Assembly: GCF_024437735.1 (NCBI RefSeq)
Contig: NZ_JANFQO010000001.1
Span: 1-64,000 of the forward strand
Source: Tahibacter harae
Lineage (GTDB): Bacteria > Pseudomonadota > Gammaproteobacteria > Xanthomonadales > Rhodanobacteraceae
Reading direction: 5' to 3'
Length of the DNA stretch: 64,000 nt
In this document: positions 283-60,408 of the stretch, piece after piece
Layout of the letters: every line of letters begins with the position of its first letter
How positions within the stretch are numbered: position 1 is the stretch's first letter
The notes under the pieces: generated by a model
Databases searched by the model: none
Seen by the model: the letters and a program-made list of their open reading frames with translations, nothing else
Told to the model about the DNA's origin: nothing
Made by a program: the position numbers and the translations under genes

Positions 283-2997
283 TCACGGCTTGCAGCCGGC
301 GTCTCGAATGCGCATCGCTGCCTCTCCCGGCAAATCCATCGCCAAGGGTTGCCGTGCGCCTTCGAGCAATACCGCCGGATGGCTGCCAGATCTTGCGACG
401 CCAACAGCGAGCCGCGTACCCGGCTCCGCGTCCGCCCAGGCACCGGCCCGTTCCTCGCCGCGCGCGCTGACCGTCACGAGCCGCACACGCGGAGCACGCT
501 GCAGGTTCAGCCGCTCGACACGGAAACCGCTGCCATCCGCAGCCGAAGCACGCAGCACGGTTTCCACCACCGAACGGGTTCGCGGCAGTACGGGCAACGT
601 GAACAACGGCGTACCTGCATCGAAGAGCTCCGCGACCGAGTCGCCAGCCGAAGCTTCGCATGCGACGAGCAACGGCTTGCCGTCGCCGTTGCCATCACGA
701 CTGGATCCGACAACGCTACCCGCGCGATCAACGCCAACACCGTCCATGATCGATTCGAAACCGTCCTGGAACAACGCCAGCGCCGTGCTGTCGCCGGCGC
801 TCTGCGCATCGGCGGTGACCGTGTACTCCACGCTGCCGCCCTGCGCATTCATCAGCACCGGCGCAGTCACTTGCCAGCTCAGGCTCGCTCCCGCCGGCAG
901 AAAAACGGTGTTGTCACTGAGCGGCCCCATACCACTGGCAACGCAGGATGCCCCGTTTCCGGCACCCACGCAGGTCCAGCTCATCTGCGCCGCATCCAGC
1001 TGCGGCGGCAGCGCGCCGGTGACGGTGATGGGGCCCGCATCGCCCGTGCCGCTGTTGCTCAGCGTCACCCCGTAGTTCAGCAGTTCGCCGTAGCGGGCGT
1101 AGTCGCGGCCGTCGCTGACGCTCAGACTCAGGTCCGGCAACCCGGCAAACGTTGCCGAGCAGATCGTGGGGCCGTCCACCGTGACCGTGGCGCTCGGCGC
1201 GGTTCCCGCCGCCGCACAATCATCACCCCAGCTGCCAAAGCGGTAACCCGCATCCGCGGTAGCCGTCAGCGTGACGCTGCTGCCGGTGGGCACACTGGTG
1301 GTGCACTGGCCCGCGCTGCAGGCAAAGAAGACGAGGCTGCTGGTCACCAGGCCGTGCGCCGGCGCGGGCGGCAGCGCGAGGGTCAGGCAATCCATGTCCA
1401 CCGCGGTCTGGGTGGCCTGGGTGCCGGCGGTGGCCGCGTCGCCGTCGGTCAGCGCGCTGACGGGCAGGCCGCTGACGGCGCCGTCGGCGTAGATGTTGCC
1501 CTGGTTGGCGATACTCAAATGCACACTGCAGTCGCTGGAATGCTTGACGCGCGCGCGGAACCGCAGCGTGGTCTGCGCGCCGGCAGCGAGCTGCCCGCCC
1601 TGCACGGCGTTCGCGCCCTGGCCAAGGCGGAAAACGAGGCTGTTGCTGGAGAGGACGAACTCGGCCTGGTCATCGCCCTGCGCATCGGTCATTGCGCCGA
1701 CAGTGGCGCCGCCGGTCACTTCCAGCGAACCGGGCACGTATTCCAGCTCCGCCGGCAGCGCATTGGTAAAGCGCAGCGCCTGTGCATCTTCGTCGCCGCT
1801 GTTGGTCACGGTCGCGCTGTACTCCAGCACGTCGCCCGGCCGCACGGCGCCGCCGTCGAGATCGGTCACGCGCAGGCTGCTGGTGCCGAAATCCGCGGCC
1901 GTGGTCGGAATGGCCGTGACCAGGCTGGCCAGCCAGGCCGTATCGGTCGAGGTTTGCGCAGTCAGGCCGGCGGAAGTCTGGCCGGGACTGAGCAGCGCGC
2001 TGACATCGGCCACATCCAGGTCGAGGCCGGACAGGCTGGCGGCCGTGCCGCTGAGCTGTGGGAGGTCGCCGGCCCGACTGACGGCAGCGCCGAGATGGCT
2101 GCGCGTGCTGTTGAAGAAATTGTCCGCGGGATTGAGCGCGTTGCTCAGCGCCGTGCCGTTGAACAGCAACTGGTCGCCGCTGACGCTGTCGCCATCCAGC
2201 GCCACCACGCCCACGCTGCCGCTGTAGCCAGCGGCGGGCACCTGGAAGCCCGCCACCGAAACCGTCGCCGGCGCGCCGTCGGTAATCAGGTCCAGGCCAT
2301 CATGAAGGCTGAGCTGGCGCAGGGGTTCGCTGTCCAGCCGGTACAGCACCACCAGCCACCAGCCCGTGGCCGCAGTGCTGTTGTTCAGATTGACGAGGGA
2401 AATGGTGTCCACGTCGGAAACGCGGTAGATGCCGCTGCCGGCCTGCTCCACCAGCGCGGTCACATCGGCCACGGCCGTGTAGCTGTTCGGCGCGGCGCGG
2501 TACGACTGGACCGCGCTAACCGCTACCGAGAAGGCGCCGGGGCGGTCGAGCGTGACCGCCGTATCCGTGCCGGAGGCCAGGTTGCCGGCCCAGTACAGAT
2601 AGGCCTGCGTGATCTGCGCGCCGGGCGGGATCTGCAGCACGGCCGAGCTGCGCGCCTGGGCCACGGTGATGCTGGCATTGGCCTGGGCCTGACCAGCGGC
2701 GGGCGCATCGGCGCGCCAGAACACATCGGGCGCGCTATCCCCCGTGTTGGTACCGCAGGGGCCAAGGATACCGACCAGCGGCGACGGCATGCCGGGCCCG
2801 CAATCCTGCGCCAGCGTGTTGCCGATCAGCAGGAAATTGCCACGCTGCACGACCTGGGTGCGCAGCGCCGGTGCCGCCTGGGCCACGCCGGTGAGCAGAG
2901 CCAGCAGGAACACCCGCCGCACAAGCCCCGGGCCGCGGCGCGGCCGCTGGCTGGTGTATGGCGTTTCATCACGAAGATGGCAAAAAGCACGCAGCAT
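283..2997 (-). CDS. Large exported DUF11-type repeat protein with internal FE motif
   Basis: About 904 residues. The ATG at 2997 is chosen over an upstream GTG because AGGGGAAC precedes it. A signal peptide ends near AQA/AP (residue 41). A beta-rich domain follows (AYLYWAGN near residue 130), then a DUF11-like Ig-type repeat (about 385-510), a divergent InlB-type repeat with GYRFGSWGDDC (about 545-625), and a second DUF11-like repeat (about 628-735). At 743-748 stands FQDGFE, the motif that ends two other exported proteins in this window; here about 156 residues follow it. Likely a surface or secreted adhesin-like protein, exact role unknown. It lies downstream of the KefB-like gene on the same strand. 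Confidence 0.8.
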   Translation of the reverse strand: MLRAFCHLRDETPYTSQRPRRGPGLVRRVFLLALLTGVAQAAPALRTQVVQRGNFLLIGNTLAQDCGPGMPSPLVGILGPCGTNTGDSAPDVFWRADAPAAGQAQANASITVAQARSSAVLQIPPGAQITQAYLYWAGNLASGTDTAVTLDRPGAFSVAVSAVQSYRAAPNSYTAVADVTALVEQAGSGIYRVSDVDTISLVNLNNSTAATGWWLVVLYRLDSEPLRQLSLHDGLDLITDGAPATVSVAGFQVPAAGYSGSVGVVALDGDSVSGDQLLFNGTALSNALNPADNFFNSTRSHLGAAVSRAGDLPQLSGTAASLSGLDLDVADVSALLSPGQTSAGLTAQTSTDTAWLASLVTAIPTTAADFGTSSLRVTDLDGGAVRPGDVLEYSATVTNSGDEDAQALRFTNALPAELEYVPGSLEVTGGATVGAMTDAQGDDQAEFVLSSNSLVFRLGQGANAVQGGQLAAGAQTTLRFRARVKHSSDCSVHLSIANQGNIYADGAVSGLPVSALTDGDAATAGTQATQTAVDMDCLTLALPPAPAHGLVTSSLVFFACSAGQCTTSVPTGSSVTLTATADAGYRFGSWGDDCAAAGTAPSATVTVDGPTICSATFAGLPDLSLSVSDGRDYARYGELLNYGVTLSNSGTGDAGPITVTGALPPQLDAAQMSWTCVGAGNGASCVASGMGPLSDNTVFLPAGASLSWQVTAPVLMNAQGGSVEYTVTADAQSAGDSTALALFQDGFESIMDGVGVDRAGSVVGSSRDGNGDGKPLLVACEASAGDSVAELFDAGTPLFTLPVLPRTRSVVETVLRASAADGSGFRVERLNLQRAPRVRLVTVSARGEERAGAWADAEPGTRLAVGVARSGSHPAVLLEGARQPLAMDLPGEAAMRIRDAGCKP

Positions 2998-3182
2998 GAA
3001 GGTTCCCCTGTGAACCTGGTGAAGCACGGAATGATGCCGCCGGCTGTGGCGGAAAACATGGCGGTATGCGGCGATCGCCGAACAGCGCGCCTGCCGCGAA
3101 AAGCGGCTCGCACGCGCATTTTTCCGCGCGGGATTCTAAGCGCAAAGCCGCGGCGGAAACTTCGGTTCCGCGACGGCCTGCT

Positions 3183-9448: not shown

Positions 9449-10738
9449 TCACGGGCTCTCGAAACCACTTGCAAAAATAGTGTCACCCGGAGCGAGAGAC
9501 GCCGCCAGAAAGTAATTCGGAACACCAGATCCGCTGCTGGGATTCGCATACCACGCAACCCTATTGTTCGCCATCCTGGGAAAGCTCCAGCGGCCATTGG
9601 AGCCACTGTAGTTGGTGATCTGTGTGGTGACGCCAGCAATAGCGTCGTAGATGAAGTAATTAGGCAACCCTGTTCCGCTGGTGGGATTGGCGTACCACGC
9701 GACTTTATTGTCCGCAGTTGCCGGATCGCTCCAGCGACCGTTGAAGCCGCTGTAGCTGGTGATTTGCGTGGTAATGCCAGAAACAGCATCATAGATGAAG
9801 TAATTGGGCACGGCTGTTCCGCTGGCGGGATTCGCGTACCAGACCACTTTGTTGCCGGCGATTGCCGGATCGCTCCAGCGGCCGTTGAAGCCACTGTAGT
9901 TTGTGATCTGCTTGGTGACGCCGGAAACGGTGTCATAGATGAAGTAGTTCGGCACTCCCGTTCCGCTGCTTGGGTTCGCGTACCAGACTACTTTGTTACC
10001 CGCAATCGCCGGATCGCTCCAGCGGCCGTTTCCACCGCTATAGTGAGTGATCTGCGTGGTAATACCGGAAGTGACGTCGTAGACGAAGTAGTTGGGCAAC
10101 TGCGTGCTGCTGGTGGGATTGGCGTACCAGACCACTTTATTGCCCGAAATTGCCGGATCGCTCCAACGACCGTTGAAGCCGCTGTAATTGGTGATCTGCG
10201 TCGTGACGCGAGAAATGGCGTCATAGATGAAGTAGTTCGGCACTCCCGTTCCGCTGGTGGGGTTCGCGTACCAAACCACTTTATTGCCCGAAGTCGCCGG
10301 AAGGCTCCAGCGGCCATTGCCGCCGCTGTAGTTGGTGATTTGCCTGGTCACGCCGGAGACGGCGTCATAGATGAAGTAGTTCGGCACTCCACTTCCACTG
10401 GTGGGATTCGCGTACCAGACTACTTTGTTACTCGAAACCACAGGGGCGCCCCAGCGGCCATTGGCGCCGCTGTAGCTAGTGATCTGCGTGGTGGTGCCGG
10501 AAACAGCGTCATAGATGAAGTAGTTGGGCAACCCTATTCCACTGGTGGGATTCGCGTACCAGACCACCTTATTTCCCGCAATTGCAGGATCGCTCCAGCG
10601 ACCATTGCCGCCGCTGTAATTGGTGAGCTGGTGGACTTCAAAACCACCAGCGAATACGTGAGGCCCGAGCAGAAAACCCAGGACAAGTGCCGATTCTGTC
10701 TTCCTCGGCACAGCGAATAAAACGAGTGAGAAAGACAT
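9449..10738 (-). CDS. Exported beta-propeller of eight near-identical blades with FE C-terminal tail
   Basis: 429 residues. A short N-terminal hydrophobic segment ends VFA/GG (about residue 30). From residue 36 it consists of eight tandem 48-residue units built on QITNYSGxNGRW, NKVVWYANPTSG and PNYFIYDAVSG, fitting a TolB/WD-type propeller blade with one unit per blade. The last unit is cut short and runs into the tail DTIFASGFESP. Blade identity is very high, implying recent amplification or gene conversion. Ligand unknown; TolB-type propellers bind proteins or polysaccharides. Not in an operon. The tail matches a motif in two other exported proteins of the window. Confidence 0.8.
   Translation of the reverse strand: MSFSLVLFAVPRKTESALVLGFLLGPHVFAGGFEVHQLTNYSGGNGRWSDPAIAGNKVVWYANPTSGIGLPNYFIYDAVSGTTTQITSYSGANGRWGAPVVSSNKVVWYANPTSGSGVPNYFIYDAVSGVTRQITNYSGGNGRWSLPATSGNKVVWYANPTSGTGVPNYFIYDAISRVTTQITNYSGFNGRWSDPAISGNKVVWYANPTSSTQLPNYFVYDVTSGITTQITHYSGGNGRWSDPAIAGNKVVWYANPSSGTGVPNYFIYDTVSGVTKQITNYSGFNGRWSDPAIAGNKVVWYANPASGTAVPNYFIYDAVSGITTQITSYSGFNGRWSDPATADNKVAWYANPTSGTGLPNYFIYDAIAGVTTQITNYSGSNGRWSFPRMANNRVAWYANPSSGSGVPNYFLAASLAPGDTIFASGFESP
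9509..10633 (-). repeat. Tandem 144-bp repeat array encoding propeller blades
   Basis: Eight units of 144 bp (48 codons), the last about 27 bp shorter, in frame within the propeller gene. Differences fall mainly in the YSGxN position and the 8-codon segment after NGRW. No spacers exist, so this is not a CRISPR array. Confidence 0.9.
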
Positions 10739-58785: not shown

Positions 58786-59064
58786 CAGCACAGCGCCGCA
58801 GACAATAGAAAAATAACGAGATTTTTCAACAAAGCGGCACCGGACAGCAGCGTCTGCAGCACCGCACGCCGGCGCACGGATCCCGCCGGCCGGATCGCGC
58901 CCCGTCGGCACAGGAACAGCGCGTACGCTCCGGCGGCGTACCGTCGAGGCGGCGTCCATTTCCGCCACTGAACAATCCGCCGCAACTGTGTCTTGCCGGC
59001 TGCGGGATGCAGGCTCACCATTTCCCGCTGCCGGCGCGTGCCGGCATTCGGCGGGGACAGGCTC

Positions 59065-60408
59065 ATGGGCGTCAGGCGCAGGCTGGCAGCGGTGATCCCG
59101 CTGGCCGTGGCGGAGATCGTCGCGACGGTATCGGCTCACGCCCGCGGTACCGGCTCGCCGGACGCCGAAACGGTCTACATCGTCACTGCCCGCCAGACCT
59201 ATGATGCAGCCGGCCTGCTGGCCCGCGAAGCGACCGCCTGGAAAGACAGCCTGGGCCGCGAGCTGGTCATTGCACAGCTGGACCCGCTCCAGATCGGTGC
59301 GCTCAGCCGCCACGTCCACGAACGCGAGCAACGCTGCGGCGGCTTTTTCGCCTTCGCCAGCCGGCCGGAAGCCGAAGCCTTCATCGTGCGCGACCGCACT
59401 GCCGAAGCCATCGCGCTGCCGCTGGGCGGTCTCTATACCATCGACAACCAGGCCACGGTCGGCCCCTGGCTGGCGCAGGTGAGCGAGGCGAACATCCACG
59501 CCACCATCACTACCCTGTCCGCGTTCCGCAACCGCTACTACGCCTCGCCGTACGGCCGCCAGGCGGCCGAATGGATACGCGACAGCTGGCAGGCGCTTGC
59601 GGCGGAGCGCGACGACGCCACGGTGGAACTGTTCCAAGGCTGCAGCAACTGCTCCACCCAGCCTTCGGTAATCCTCACCGTGCGCGGTGCGGAATTGCCG
59701 GACGAGGTGGTCGTACTCGGCGGCCATCTGGATTCGATCACCAGCGCCTTCTCCGTCCCCGTTCCCGACCTGGAACAGCCCGCGCCCGGCGCCGATGACG
59801 ATGCTTCCGGCATCGCCACCCTCACCGAGATCATCCGCATCAGCCTGGCCAGCGGCTGGAAACCCCGGCGCACCGTGAAATTCATGGGCTACGCGGCCGA
59901 GGAAGTCGGCCTGCGCGGCTCCGCGGCCATCGCCAACCGCTTCCGCGACGACGGCATCAACGTCATCGGCGTGCTGCAGCTGGACATGACCAATTATCGC
60001 CAGAACGTGGGCCGGGACCTGCGCATCGTCAGTGATTTTTCCAACACGGCGCTGACCACTTACTTCGCCGAACTGTTCGACGCCTATCTGGTGCCGCTGG
60101 GCGGAGTGCGCTCGGCACTGGCCTGCAACTATGGCTGTTCCGACCATGCCTCGTGGACATCGGCCGGCTTCCCCGCAGGCATGGTGTTCGAGGCCGGCCG
60201 GCCGCAGAACCCGAACAATCCCTGGGATCTGGGCGCCTTCCAGAGCATACACAGCACCGCCGACACGCTGGCCAACATGGGCAACTCCGCCAGCAACAGC
60301 GTGCGCTTCGCCCAGTTCGGACTGGCCTTCGCCGGCGAGCTGGGCAAGACCTACGACGGGGCTGAGGACGCGATTTTCAGTGATGACTTCGAGGTGGTGG
60401 TGGACTGA
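59065..60408 (+). CDS. Exported M28 aminopeptidase with FE C-terminal tail
   Basis: 447 residues from ATG 59065. Signal peptide ending SAHA/RG (about 26). A pro-like domain (about 30-125) precedes the M28 catalytic domain with zinc ligands His221 (GGHLDS), Asp (GADDDASG, 242-249), Glu279/Glu280 (YAAEEVG), Asp307 (QLDMTN) and His396 (QSIHSTAD), as in Vibrio/Aeromonas leucyl aminopeptidase. The C-terminal about 30 residues end DAIFSDDFEVVVD, with the FE motif found also at 9449 and 743-748 of the first protein. Confidence 0.92.
   Translation: MGVRRRLAAVIPLAVAEIVATVSAHARGTGSPDAETVYIVTARQTYDAAGLLAREATAWKDSLGRELVIAQLDPLQIGALSRHVHEREQRCGGFFAFASRPEAEAFIVRDRTAEAIALPLGGLYTIDNQATVGPWLAQVSEANIHATITTLSAFRNRYYASPYGRQAAEWIRDSWQALAAERDDATVELFQGCSNCSTQPSVILTVRGAELPDEVVVLGGHLDSITSAFSVPVPDLEQPAPGADDDASGIATLTEIIRISLASGWKPRRTVKFMGYAAEEVGLRGSAAIANRFRDDGINVIGVLQLDMTNYRQNVGRDLRIVSDFSNTALTTYFAELFDAYLVPLGGVRSALACNYGCSDHASWTSAGFPAGMVFEAGRPQNPNNPWDLGAFQSIHSTADTLANMGNSASNSVRFAQFGLAFAGELGKTYDGAEDAIFSDDFEVVVD

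Follow-up and report, generated by a model that had tools for sequence, protein, structure and literature searches.

Three proteins encoded in the window, by which we mean the whole stretch of 64,000 nucleotides that was analysed, carry a short motif that the preliminary description took for a tail shared by exported proteins with otherwise unrelated domains. The question that this locus raises is whether the motif is a genuine tag and, if so, which machinery reads it.

The first of the three is an exported, beta-propeller-like protein of 429 amino acids (9452-10738 on the minus strand; 9449-10738 for the open reading frame with its stop), whose translation, read against the consensus given below, has the C-terminal tag D-T-I-F-A-S-G-F-E followed by S-P at 9452-9484 (minus strand), with the stop codon at 9449-9451; the ending TIFASGFESP initially claimed for it was confirmed by minus-strand translation of 9449-9481, stop included. 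A profile search with TIGR04275 recovers the propeller repeats (E 1.5e-21; 75.9 bits vs a cut-off of 85). Pfam also returns an RbcX match for this protein (9452-10738, minus strand; E 1.6e-6) in which no single stretch passes and which is probably an artefact of the repeats, and a second motif, FAGGFE, at 10637-10654, overlapping the end of the signal peptide, is probably a coincidence. The second protein is an exported M28 (LapA-like) aminopeptidase (58993-60405 on the plus strand, or 58993-60408 with the stop; PF04389, E 1.8e-28), with a match to NF045908 LapA at E 2.5e-55 that falls under the cut-off of that model. Its translation and its alignment with four other tagged proteins place the tag D-A-I-F-S-D-D-F-E, followed by V-V-V-D, at 60367-60405 (plus strand); the C-terminal end of the protein is AIFSDDFEVVVD, with the motif at 60376-60393 (plus strand), and the tail reported earlier for it, DAIFSDDFEVVVD, is indeed how it ends. 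With D instead of G, this form of the tag falls outside the strict pattern F-x-[DNSTAG]-G-F-E. The third is a DUF11-repeat protein (286-3027 on the minus strand; 283-3027 with the stop; PF01345, E 8e-15), which carries L-F-Q-D-G-F-E at 754-774 (core 754-771; minus strand). The motif had been described as standing at or near the end of all three proteins, and this holds for the propeller and the M28 peptidase, but not for the DUF11-type protein, where LFQDGFESI is present 156 residues before the stop, so that two examples, not three, are genuine tails. Neither Pfam nor NCBIfam has a match that covers the tag in any of the three window proteins. In the DUF11-type proteins, namely, that of the window (286-3027, minus strand) and those of loci L016 and L031, the motif is followed by a last segment of 128-156 residues, and the last segments of L016 and L031 are weakly alike (14 of 45 positions identical).

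Across the 5.99 Mb genome, the pattern F-x-[DNSTAG]-G-F-E (TTYNNNRVYGGNTTYGAR) has 49 matches vs none for the reversed-pattern control, which, with the varied synonymous codons and the conserved flanks that the search pattern did not fix, removes chance recurrence as an account of the motif; the 49 matches represent 44 distinct DNA sequences and use all four glycine codons. No more than 11 residues separate 39 of them from an in-frame stop, one of these 39 (L037) lying in a short open reading frame that is probably no real gene, and the remaining 10 are found 36 to more than 500 residues from such a stop. By eye, these 10 comprise four in which an aliphatic residue stands ahead of the Phe and 128 to 498 residues follow (L001, L016, L031 and L042), a doubled tail (L025), one motif directly after a signal peptide (L012), one close to a signal peptide with a poor fit to the consensus (L028), the second motif of the propeller, at the end of its signal peptide (L002), and two that look like chance matches (L005 and L023). 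In L012 (C5, near 122354), VFRDGFE opens the mature part of a putative DUF1800 protein. The tagged protein at locus L100 ends with two tags in tandem, FFADGFEGSDDLFSDGFE, an arrangement similar to the doubling in L025.

The motif was initially written as F-x-x-(G/D)-F-E; it is real, but its core, D-x-[ILV]-F-x-[DN]-G-F-E, is longer, at some nine residues, and anything from none to about 11 more come after it. In a set of 32 tagged proteins of this genome, which was limited to eight residues after the tag and was not biased for the stop, the residue at -1 is I or L in all 32 and that at -3 is D in 23; the first Phe is followed by a residue that varies (it is A, K or V in 23), by D or N in 26, and then by G, F and E. 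From 0 to 7 residues come after the Glu in this set, one being the commonest number (12 of 32). The 55 tagged proteins taken from relatives have D at -3 in 31 cases and I, L or V at -1 in 54; the logo of these 55 is biased at D/N, G, F, E and the stop because the search pattern fixed these positions. The Asp/Asn-Gly pair could form a tight turn.

The tag is associated with signal peptides. These, called by a simple rule of our own against a baseline of open reading frames that includes spurious calls, were found in 23 of 28 tagged genes of this genome vs 64 of 186 other called frames in the same stretches (p 2e-6) and in 34 of 43 tagged genes of relatives vs 55 of 153 other frames (p 6e-7), which is the enrichment that had been proposed as a check. 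All five genes missed by the rule in this genome show a signal-peptide-like stretch by eye, either behind a later start or within the start as listed, as do seven of the nine missed in relatives (L086 and L100 being the other two), bringing the proteins with an N-terminal export signal to 28 of 28 and 41 of 43, respectively, the baseline being by rule alone. Of 80 loci, 48 were kept by eye to count signal peptides and to make up the tag set and the logo; the others were apparent chance matches in other groups or had no tag in a likely gene.

What precedes the tag is highly diverse. In a set of 87 tagged proteins, mean column identity is 7%, and no column is invariant except those of the tag's two Phe, in agreement with the original notion of a short tail shared by exported proteins that are otherwise unrelated in their domains. 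Among the matches listed for NCBIfam (E up to 0.001, not judged by model cut-offs; the 25 commonest of 75 families) are choice-of-anchor Q (12 proteins), J (3) and D (2), myxosortase-dependent M36 (7), rhombosortase-dependent M36 (5), LapA (4), ExeM-GG (2), rhombotarget A (2) and MtsC (2), and the Pfam matches (the 25 commonest of 93 families) include beta-helix, Kelch, M28, P-domain, cadherin-like and other domains; no tail model is found among the 25 commonest families. Most of these families take their names from sorting tails, and LapA and ExeM are known cargo of type II secretion. As judged from these family matches, the tag is shown to occupy the slot where homologues elsewhere carry GlyGly-CTERM, MYXO-CTERM or other anchors. 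Propellers and M28, M36-like and beta-helix proteins, among others, all have the tail behind them. It is therefore not the final strand of any single domain, and the ending of a known domain, raised at the outset as a possible explanation, does not account for it.

The genes adjacent to the tagged ones were considered as a clue to the reader and set aside: the most recurrent neighbour, a kinase-like family present in seven loci (L040, L093, L103, L111, L120, L129 and L141), looks regulatory. In L093 and L103, the kinase-like gene comes with a short ECF-sigma-like partner, both names being read from the sequence.

In 299 genomes of Lysobacterales/Xanthomonadales, motif counts range from background to 147 (control 2). 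Families f3, f4, f5 and f12 have at least 20 matches in every genome listed, and f9 mostly so, except for g55 and G019; in f10, several genera have high counts but g31 has low ones, f8 is a mixture, f1, the family of the window, is high in genera g1, g3, g12 and g14 and low in the others, and f2 is low except for g60 and g78. The named carriers include Chiayiivirga flava, Pseudofulvimonas gallinarii, Tahibacter soli and Marinicella meishanensis. Outside the order, 324 genomes (329 searched minus five that belong to it) mostly have background counts, the highest being 35 vs a control of 6 in G622, with no stop-adjacent tag; the stop-adjacent pattern also admits TGG (Trp), for example, in G019 and G492. 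The tag, then, is largely confined to one order. In three haloarchaeal loci (L110, L118 and L125), apparently of one protein family, the endings FEDGFE, FENGFE or FEDDFE are probably a coincidence within that family. The tag itself is established: it is real and marks the C-terminal end of exported proteins across much of the order.

What might such a tag do? We consider it highly probable that it is a linear sorting tag, and we infer that it is read after export. The tagged proteins would cross the inner membrane via an ordinary signal peptide and fold in the periplasm, where recognition of the exposed tag would direct them either through the outer membrane or onto it. The likeliest reader would be the type II secretion system in which GspC carries HR and PDZ domains, a system often encoded near rhlB, the PDZ domain of GspC being a natural candidate for binding a C-terminal peptide. 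Taken as a whole, this proposal, a sorting tag that is read after export, most likely by the type II system with a PDZ-type GspC, comes close to an even chance. Type II secretion as the reader is a tentative assignment, with somewhat less than even chances, and the GspC PDZ domain as the actual binding site is unlikely.

The PDZ-type GspC had been set down as the candidate reader before the search. In a panel of 80 genomes hand-picked for high and low counts, in which tag-rich denotes an excess of at least 20 motif matches over the control, GspC with a PDZ domain (a TIGR01713 match reaching the PDZ end) was found in all 37 tag-rich genomes but in 5 of the 43 tag-poor ones, with G089 matching in two pieces of one frame and the degenerate genes of G061 and G249 taken as absent. 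GspD-family matches are present in all 80 genomes, in 79 of them over the cut-off, so the tag does not track type II secretion in general. A second, deliberately harder set drew 35 genomes from the intermediate and contradictory members of the order; a full GspC was present in 8 of the 11 that were tag-rich and in 14 of the 24 that were tag-poor (p 0.48; the partial GspC of G114 counted as without). When these genomes were divided by at least two stop-adjacent tags, a threshold picked afterwards, GspC was present in 13 of 17 vs 9 of 18 (p 0.16; G212, 60% complete, counted among those without GspC). Pooling of both sets, whose members are relatives and not independent, gives a PDZ-type GspC in 45 of 48 tag-rich vs 19 of 67 tag-poor genomes; this contingency leaves out nine genomes outside the order (G622, G492, G613, G367, G508, G403, G405, G514 and G412), which have no clear joint trend of GspC and motif counts. 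Exosortase (PF09721), too, is commoner in tag-rich panel genomes (18 of 37 vs 6 of 43), and co-occurrence alone is therefore weak evidence. The search for a co-occurring processing enzyme that had been suggested yielded no candidate: exosortase as a required reader was rejected, with no PF09721 match in 19 of the 37 tag-rich panel genomes.

No PDZ-type GspC was found, even with a tuned profile, in G063 and G097, which have 3 and 8 stop-adjacent tags, respectively, and one GspD over the cut-off each; a missed gene is possible because these assemblies are 97-98% complete and in many contigs. Conversely, seven genomes of genus g31 in f10 have GspC and a single stop-adjacent match among them all, and G176, G156 and G127 have GspC and no stop-adjacent tags. 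Given carriers in which no PDZ-type GspC was found and GspC genomes with almost no tags, most carriers may need the system, yet it is not sufficient. Furthermore, nothing in the co-occurrence singles out the PDZ domain because GspC travels with other type II genes.

The PDZ-type gspC adjoins gspD and, where checked, gspE, and G004 has gspCDEF. In 11 of the 15 tag-rich gspC loci within L222-L241, a motif of rhlB, trx or rho falls inside the 20 kb examined, at a distance of 10 kb in L229; none were seen in L223, L226, L237 and L241. Inside 20 GspC loci of 17-20 kb, there is one tagged gene (in G110, divergent from gspC), which we do not count as evidence. A profile of 15 GspC proteins matches the structures of OutC, PulC and EpsC; in an AlphaFold model of GspC (mean pLDDT 69.8, pTM 0.34), confident parts are accompanied by a disordered linker, and the two confident parts appear to fit the HR and PDZ domains. 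No PDZ feature separating tag-bearing from tag-less GspC was seen by eye. In Vibrio, the PDZ domain of EpsC is required for VesB secretion (PMC12369372), and XpsC of Xanthomonas has a single helix instead of the PDZ (PMC11981180). For classical C-terminal PDZ binding, the one to seven residues that follow the Glu in 27 of the 32 tagged proteins are awkward, and motifs that are internal or right behind a signal peptide likewise count against PDZ reading.

A reader other than the PDZ-type type II system is about as likely. The tag could be a surface-retention or processing tag that is read by another outer-membrane receptor or enzyme, the co-occurrence with GspC reflecting shared ancestry and losses, and this is a serious contender, even if it, too, stays below an even chance. 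It accords with the presence of the tag in the same protein slot as anchors, with the tags of G063 and G097 in genomes without a detectable PDZ-type system, with the lack of significance of the GspC association in the hard follow-up set, and with the internal placements of the motif, including the one directly behind a signal peptide, but no candidate enzyme was found, exosortase not being required, and the phylogeny is against it. When 60 genomes are placed on a GspD tree, five changes of the tag are required: three coincide with a change in GspC (as read from the tree, in the main f1 clade, in G053 and in the main f2 clade), two come with no GspC difference, and none runs the opposite way (p 0.25). 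The three concordant changes are independent losses of the tag together with GspC.

There is a slight probability that the tag is a quality-control or degradation handle bound by periplasmic PDZ proteases of the DegP, DegQ, Prc or DegS type. On general grounds, such proteases recognise C-terminal ends, and this tail has an acidic, aromatic character; however, PDZ-only matches of other proteins occur in many tag-poor genomes, so that the presence of such PDZ proteins does not follow that of the tag. Moreover, enzymes and adhesin-like proteins would make odd clients for degradation, and the slot of the tag is the slot of sorting signals. Finally, that the tag is the end of a known domain or a chance recurrence has a probability close to nil, being already contradicted by the counts, the many unrelated domains ahead of the tag, the varied synonymous codons and the conserved flanking positions that were not selected for, although short motifs do recur, and L005, L023 and L037 are by eye chance matches or probably non-genic.

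If the motif is a sorting tag, as we believe, one short pattern would aid the annotation of the surface and secreted proteome in much of an order and would provide a compact tool for display. If it is a type II signal, a pathway that, according to the authors of PMC12369372, lacks a linear universal signal would turn out to have a simple code at the sequence level. What type II secretion recognises and what purpose the PDZ domain of GspC serves is a long-open question, and if this system reads the tag, both its recognition and the role of the PDZ domain become testable. That the tag is a linear, portable type II signal on dozens of proteins per genome, recognised by the PDZ-bearing GspC system of Lysobacterales, is in itself rather unlikely.

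Among the matches listed in our literature search, which covered mostly open literature and in which one query drowned in unrelated words, no description of the tag was found; as far as this literature goes, it is undescribed. The T9SS C-terminal domain of Bacteroidota resembles the tag in being a C-terminal secretion signal without a membrane helix, but it is a folded domain with its own machinery, whereas the present tag is a peptide. With PEP-CTERM and exosortase (PMC3237569), the tag shares the many substrates per genome, the lineage restriction and the C-terminal position. However, the PEP-CTERM and IPTL-CTERM signals have a helix and a basic cluster, and the tag is without both: 84 of the 87 tagged proteins have no hydrophobic stretch (a 17-residue window with a mean hydropathy of at least 1.6) in the last 45 residues, and 86 have no basic cluster (at least three K/R in the last eight), so the initial distinction from PEP-CTERM stands. 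GlyGly-CTERM, the partner of rhombosortase, is likewise a short C-terminal region on exported proteins otherwise unlike each other, with overlapping cargo families (M36, ExeM and RbtA); in Vibrio, this cargo exits by type II secretion, and GlyGly-CTERM requires a second secretion signal for crossing the outer membrane (both PMC13393428). Yet GlyGly-CTERM, as defined in PMC3237569, consists of a motif, a membrane helix and a basic cluster, and the present tag lacks the latter two. Cargo families are shared with MYXO-CTERM and myxosortase as well (myxosortase-dependent M36 and MtsC), but the tripartite MYXO-CTERM signal has an invariant Cys (PMC11980579), and the present consensus has no Cys. 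Among the determinants of type II secretion, loop 3 of PelI is a nine-residue exposed loop that is described in PMC7949064 as a signal interacting with domains of GspC and GspD. Such determinants, namely, PelI loop 3 and the VesB Ig fold, are structural and substrate-specific, whereas the tag described here is one linear sequence carried by dozens of unrelated proteins.
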